Assembly (NCBI GenBank): GCA_021770065.1
Contig: JAETRR010000002.1
Coordinates: 1-64,000, forward strand
Length of the DNA: 64,000 nucleotides
Origin: Lachnoclostridium sp.
GTDB taxonomy: Bacteria; Bacillota; Clostridia; Lachnospirales; Lachnospiraceae
Direction of reading: 5' to 3'
This document shows, one piece after another, positions 17,751 through 17,818 of the stretch. Positions within the stretch are counted from its first letter, which is position 1, and each line of letters begins with the position of its first letter. The notes beneath the pieces are model-generated. The model did not search any database. It was not told the origin of the DNA and saw nothing but the letters and a program-made list of their open reading frames with translations. The position numbers and the translations under genes were made by a program.

Positions 17751-17818
17751 ACGATGTGTCAGAGGTTCGAATCCTCTCCCATATGAGGAATGGGTAGCTA
17801 AGTGGGTATAGCAATCGT
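17751..17818 (+). ncRNA. Circularly permuted tRNA-like module, candidate bacterial Y RNA (YrlA-type)
   Basis: ACGAT | GTGTC | AGAGG-TTCGAAT-CCTCT | CCCAT-(ATGAGGA)-ATGGG | TA | GCTA-AGTGGGTA-TAGC | A | ATCGT: T-arm, capped acceptor stem, D-arm and an open anticodon-like stem (ACGAT/ATCGT). T8, A14, G15:C48, G18G19 and T54T55C56 positions conserved. Confidence 0.75.

Follow-up and report, generated by a model that had tools for sequence, protein, structure and literature searches.

What kind of RNA lies between rtcB and the slipin gene in the genome of this gut bacterium, and with which protein does it work? The window analysed here, i.e., the whole stretch of 64,000 nucleotides from Lachnoclostridium sp., contains in this intergenic region a segment of 68 nt in which the initial annotation saw a circularly permuted tRNA mimic, a candidate YrlA-type Y RNA linked to RtcB and an SPFH protein. 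Y RNAs are usually tied to Ro60. For comparison, 80 related rtcB loci were fetched; the features of the window are collected in Table 1.

Table 1. Features of the rtcB-slipin region in the window (positions 39-43, 27-31, 8, 9 and 26 follow tRNA numbering)
Feature	Position	Strand	Support or remark
rtcB, RNA ligase	16361..17593	+	PF01139 8e-109
Larger conserved structured RNA filling the rtcB-slipin intergenic region, approximate extent	17600..18088	+	ends inferred from conservation
Conserved hairpin upstream of the module (GCGGTGC ... GGCATTCC)	17696..17734	+	
Circularly permuted tRNA-like module (stem 39-43/27-31, variable loop, T-arm, capped acceptor, D-arm)	17751..17818	+	covariation; Rfam RF02553 30.9 bits; Levitt pair 15-48
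39-43 strand ACGAT	17751-17755	+	
Variable loop GTGTC	17756-17760	+	
T-arm AGAGG-TTCGAAT-CCTCT	17761..17777	+	covariation
Acceptor stem CCCAT/ATGGG, cap loop ATGAGGA, without CCA end	17778..17794	+	covariation
T8A9	17795-17796	+	
D-arm GCTA-AGTGGGTA-TAGC	17797..17812	+	covariation
A26	17813	+	
ATCGT strand (27-31), partner of ACGAT	17814-17818	+	
Anticodon-arm mimic, 8 bp stem, 7-nt loop CTGTAAA (= tRNA-Tyr (GUA) anticodon loop)	17826..17848	+	
Long-range helix, 5' strand GCTTTTCCC	17874..17882	+	helix 2, 93.8% cells paired
Second long helix, 5' strand	17948..17967	+	helix 3, 10/16 pairs changed both sides
Second long helix, 3' strand	18043..18060	+	helix 3
Long-range helix, 3' strand GGGAAAAGC	18066..18074	+	helix 2
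Slipin: N-terminal beta repeats, SPFH domain, long helix	18179..19294	+	PF01145 2e-24; structure model; Foldseek
WYL/WCX-like protein; homologues lie next to module loci elsewhere in Clostridia	20117..21163	-	
WYL-domain regulator	21172..22410	-	

The permuted module and the RNA around it

The permuted tRNA geometry first proposed for the 68 nt is exact in its letters and coordinates, and both the MFE and the centroid fold give the permuted cloverleaf. The folding energy is ordinary (z = -0.33) and hence counts as no evidence, and a search for the full permuted-cloverleaf pattern returned a single site in the window, as against a single site in all 200 dinucleotide-shuffled windows together. 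The fold is conserved in a register-checked alignment of 17 members from rtcB-slipin intergenic regions, where the stems are kept as the proposal implied: 98.1% of the pair cells are standard, 14 of the 19 module pairs have changed on both sides, none of 500 shuffles equals this covariation, and slid registers pair at 57% or less. Among the tertiary contacts that had been read into the sequence is the Levitt pair 15-48. Of 43 modules, 35 have G-C and 5 have A-U at this pair, the two forms usual in tRNA, and the mimic therefore probably folds into a tRNA-like elbow. A free 3′ CCA is indeed lacking, the acceptor stem being capped; in many species the cap is a GAAA, GCAA or TTCG tetraloop, from which the stem appears meant to be closed. 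A functional (permuted) tRNA gene would have a 7-bp acceptor with a CCA-accepting end and would need an anticodon loop; here the acceptor is 5 bp long and loop-closed, no anticodon loop lies inside the 68-nt module, and ARAGORN finds no tRNA in the window. Both a free permuted tRNA gene and a tRNA remnant are ruled out by the capped acceptor and the covariation.

Some loci vary the theme. The permuted module occurs in tandem in L054:5560-5744 (three copies, the last partial) and in L161:1437-1566 (two copies), and in L131-L134 a second unit seems to come after the module, composed of a T-arm, a capped stem, a D-arm-like hairpin and a closed anticodon arm, the last with an Asp or Lys loop in L133 and L134. 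An unrelated structured RNA, a THF riboswitch, lies elsewhere in the window (29931-30042, minus strand, 71 bits).

The module itself had been recognised correctly; what the earlier reading missed is that the conserved RNA to which it belongs is much larger and includes an anticodon-arm mimic. Comparative analysis shows that the intergenic region encodes a conserved, predicted structured RNA of approx. 490 nt with the capped permuted tRNA mimic as its central module. Outside the module, covariation is seen in three helices, two of which are long-range (two-sided changes in 18 of 37 pairs, slid controls at 57% or less), and their 93.4% of paired cells is a flattered value, since the helices were predicted and counted on one and the same alignment, which makes the two-sided changes the stronger evidence. 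The upstream hairpin carries a GGYRTNCC motif in 27 of 34 slipin-linked loci vs. none of 9 other module loci, and in many relatives the module is followed by another T-arm. Among Rfam families, only YrlA fits the intergenic RNA.

The hairpin that follows the module in the window has the anticodon loop of a tyrosine tRNA, and a seven-base loop with UGU would suit the queuosine-inserting transglycosylase. With 329 tRNAs from the fetched loci as reference (42 distinct loops), 45 non-redundant regions upstream of slipin were scanned for such mimics. Hairpins of at least 6 bp have an exact anticodon loop 7 times on the sense strand and never on the antisense strand, as compared with 0.05 in shuffles, and the corresponding values at 5 bp or more are 10, 1 and 0.23; at 4 bp or more there are only 14 matches, some of which come from close relatives. 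Predicted exact anticodon loops are enriched on the sense strand in relatives. Those with stems of at least 5 bp are mostly of the GUN type (Tyr, Asn), with Lys (UUU), Ser and Pro in addition, and an Asp loop on a 4-bp stem is present in L133. The set includes known targets of anticodon nucleases: colicin E5 cuts QUN tRNAs (Tyr, His, Asn, Asp), and PrrC cuts tRNA-Lys (PMC4307249). In several relatives (L037, L043 and L044), a plain hairpin whose loop does not resemble that of an anticodon arm takes the place of the mimic, which is thus not universal.

Kinship with Y RNAs and the genomic partner

A search with the Rfam YrlA model (RF02553) gives a local match to the module (30.9 bits, E 9e-5) that covers only model positions 23-85, the tRNA-like part, and stays below the gathering score of 69 bits; Ro60-linked Clostridial loci miss this score as well (46.5 and 50.9 bits), so that failing it says little. 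Of the proposal of a YrlA-type Y RNA, the permuted tRNA-mimic module stands, but the Y RNA as such is not supported, as the basal Ro60-type stem is absent at the window module (flank-duplex z +0.83). The mean flank-duplex z is +0.06 for slipin-linked modules (n = 26) vs. -2.45 for those linked to Ro60, DUF2828 or the TerD-like family (n = 9; p 4e-5); a long paired basal stem surrounds the module at the latter loci and at none of the slipin group. The lack of a Ro60/Rsr gene noted in the window extends to the rest of the genome, in which no TROVE gene was found, an absence that is not absolute at 92.5% completeness. Nor was TROVE found in any of 18 module-bearing Lachnospiraceae genomes (that of the window and 17 others). 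Judged from its predicted structure, the window RNA does not qualify as a standard Y RNA but is related to the bacterial Y RNAs and has a YrlA-type module.

It had also been claimed that the RNA is linked to RtcB and an SPFH protein. It does lie between rtcB and slipin, but its genomic partner is slipin rather than RtcB. The module is found again 3′ of rtcB wherever slipin comes next, with one exception. When the 76 rtcB loci with 1 kb or more of downstream sequence are counted, slipin and module occur together in 32, slipin alone in 1, the module alone in 3 and neither in 40 (Fisher p 7e-17, which is a guide only, as the loci are related). The three module-only loci adjoin other genes, namely DUF2828/DUF7788 in L108 and L110 and the TerD-like family in L055, and in L045 slipin and module have both been lost, leaving approx. 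27 C-terminal slipin residues. The sole slipin locus without a full module (L096:5389-5419) retains just a T-arm and a short capped stem.

In other Clostridia, the module stands directly 3′ of a WYL-type gene pair, to which the WYL-type genes of the window (20117-22410) are homologous. The gene order there is WYL-WYL-RNA-slipin-rtcB (L188, L189), WYL-WYL-RNA-slipin (L185) or WYL-WYL-RNA-Ro60 (L187, L135, L147), the assignment of Ro60 being based on TROVE (5e-37) and the Ro60 vWA domain, and the larger WYL-type proteins are 67-75% identical between slipin-kind and Ro60-kind loci. One genome (G527) has the slipin and Ro60 systems together, each with its own RNA, and L161, from a different class of Bacillota, combines rtcB with a tandem pair of modules and a slipin-like gene. 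Locus comparison shows that the genetic partner of the putative RNA is slipin, in the place held by Ro60 in other Clostridia.

Other proteins also neighbour such RNAs. A YrlA-like RNA with a complete basal stem adjoins an uncharacterised family of approx. 680 aa at full length in L003, L004, L008 and L055; one member is named TerD family protein, NF041916 (MXAN_6230/SCO0854-like) matches at 4e-26, and the structure of the 681-aa protein gave no confident fold match. This family is a possible further Y RNA partner. In L002, L108 and L110, a YrlA-like module lies beside DUF2828/DUF7788 proteins, which are vWA-like and perhaps Ro60-like.

Slipin itself has no close solved full-length relative. 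Its model (pLDDT 80) combines N-terminal beta repeats, an SPFH domain and a long helix; the SPFH part matches stomatin, and the sequence profile reaches stomatin, QmcA and HflK and does not reach the vault protein. The nearest folds in Foldseek are stomatin, QmcA, HflK/C, prohibitin and the major vault protein, all with modest TM-scores, the longest alignment being that with the major vault protein (approx. 400 columns, E 4e-9, TM approx. 0.4).

Possible roles of the RNA

Considering RNA structure, linkage and the replacement of Ro60 together, we lean towards the view that the RNA is a slipin-bound tRNA mimic and acts as a bait or scaffold when RtcB repairs tRNAs. The RNA would be produced together with rtcB and slipin upon tRNA damage, and a slipin oligomer, a ring or cage as in other SPFH proteins, would bind the RNA body, a binding that we infer from linkage only. 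The exposed tRNA elbow, the capped acceptor and the anticodon loop could then form both a bait and a docking platform, which might draw anticodon nucleases or other tRNA-acting enzymes or, alternatively, keep broken tRNAs close to RtcB; the mimic itself would be neither charged nor used in translation. This reading is suggested by the covariation of the module, the outer helices and the Levitt pair, by the linkage to slipin and its exchange with Ro60, by the absence of TROVE from the 18 Lachnospiraceae genomes, by the anticodon loops of nuclease targets and by the fold neighbours of slipin. Against it stand the small number of anticodon matches, the loci that lack the mimic, and the finding that Salmonella YrlA is not cut by a RecA-dependent tRNA nuclease (PMC7790460). 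The authors of that study suggested that the YrlA tRNA-like domain might instead inhibit this anticodon nuclease, which is the same idea as the bait model.

The main rival is a cis-acting role, in which the structure would be not a free RNA but an element of the rtcB-slipin mRNA, i.e., a slipin leader or processing signal sensing tRNA-binding proteins or damaged tRNAs. The RNA lies between two same-strand genes, a scan between them predicted neither promoter nor terminator, and Proteobacterial relatives have tRNA-like elements immediately 5′ of slipin. However, approx. 490 nt is large for a leader, the literature describes YrlA relatives as protein-bound free RNAs, and RNA-Ro60 and RNA-slipin units retain the RNA whichever gene is upstream; we consider this role unlikely, while giving it appreciable weight. 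It is distinctly less plausible to us that slipin forms a vault-like cage that packages the RNA, with work on tRNA damage being secondary. The eukaryotic vault likewise unites a small RNA with an SPFH-like protein and the TROVE protein TEP1, and the slipin model aligns to the major vault protein and to ring- and cage-forming SPFH proteins, but with low TM-scores and with the vault protein beyond the reach of sequence profiles.

The remaining readings are more improbable still. Were the RNA mainly a substrate or product of RtcB, the ligase would seal its two ends at the anticodon-loop position to give a tRNA-shaped circle, and the module does end where cleaved tRNA halves are sealed and adjoins rtcB in this family of rtcB loci; yet its acceptor is already closed, it sits within a longer conserved RNA, and L185 and L132 have RNA and slipin without rtcB close by, which leaves this idea with little probability. 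A standard YrlA-type Y RNA whose Ro60 is encoded elsewhere or was missed would agree with the RF02553 match, the same module topology and the incomplete genome, but it would have to do without a basal stem and across 18 genomes without TROVE, and is very improbable. Least of all do we expect decayed tandem tRNA genes, in which the junction of neighbouring tRNAs resembles the module. Such junctions make up most weak model matches, both for RF02553 across 200 genomes of the family and for model R1 across class and phylum (the real hits being L131-L135, L147 and L161), but here a short loop caps the acceptor, CCA and any ARAGORN prediction are lacking, the window module scores 81 bits vs. at most 39 for tandem tRNA junctions in the same genome, and compensatory changes across many genera refute the idea.

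A bolder form of the bait or scaffold reading is that a Y-RNA-type mimic exchanged Ro60 for an SPFH cage protein and evolved anticodon loops that imitate nuclease-cut tRNAs, the whole forming a particle dedicated to bait and repair that parallels the eukaryotic vault; this we regard as doubtful. In any case, the genomic slot keeps its tRNA-mimic module even where the partner is not the usual one, which means that the role of the RNA is separable from that of Ro60. A defined set of species, and an RNA with anticodon mimics, would allow a direct test of the purpose of tRNA mimicry in Y RNAs and RtcB operons.

Comparison with known systems

The window RNA shares with YrlA (RF02553) the linkage to RNA repair genes and the permuted module, in which T-arm, capped acceptor and D-arm are followed by a stem closing at the anticodon-stem position. 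Unlike YrlA, it has neither a basal Ro60 stem nor a Ro60 gene, slipin standing in its place; its module sits inside approx. 490 nt of further conserved structure with an anticodon-arm mimic, and many relatives carry a second T-arm. With tmRNA, it has in common a tRNA-like domain within a larger RNA; in contrast to tmRNA, its capped acceptor means that it cannot be charged, and there is no Rfam tmRNA match in the region.

SPFH genes in RNA-repair settings are known from other bacteria. In Anabaena, one regulator represses both rtcB and a slipin gene. The locus described here resembles that of PaFlo8 in P. aeruginosa, an SPFH gene within an rtcA/rtcB/rtcR locus (PMC13086221). The PaFlo8 locus is regulated by RtcR, whereas the window has WYL proteins nearby, and the passage on RtcB in that paper names no RNA (PMC13086221). 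Slipin relatives also occur in rtcR loci of Proteobacteria, behind tRNA-like elements in the usual arm order; for example, tRNA-like RNAs lie between rtcR and slipin at L181:3662-3799 and L182:3028-3100, the latter with a GAAA-capped anticodon stem. The window RNA differs from these SPFH-linked RNAs in being permuted.

SPFH/Band-7 modules with a novel tRNA-like RNA were reportedly named as scaffolds in RNA repair by Burroughs and Aravind in 2016, so that a tRNA-like RNA linked to an SPFH protein had reportedly already been proposed. The window locus, an RNA-repair locus where an SPFH gene neighbours a tRNA-like RNA, resembles that system, as reported, in the RtcB/RNA-repair setting, the SPFH protein and the tRNA-like RNA. 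To that reported system, the present analysis adds that the RNA is of the YrlA-type permuted form, has lost the Ro60 stem, is large and carries anticodon loops, and that slipin and Ro60 replace each other in one genomic slot.
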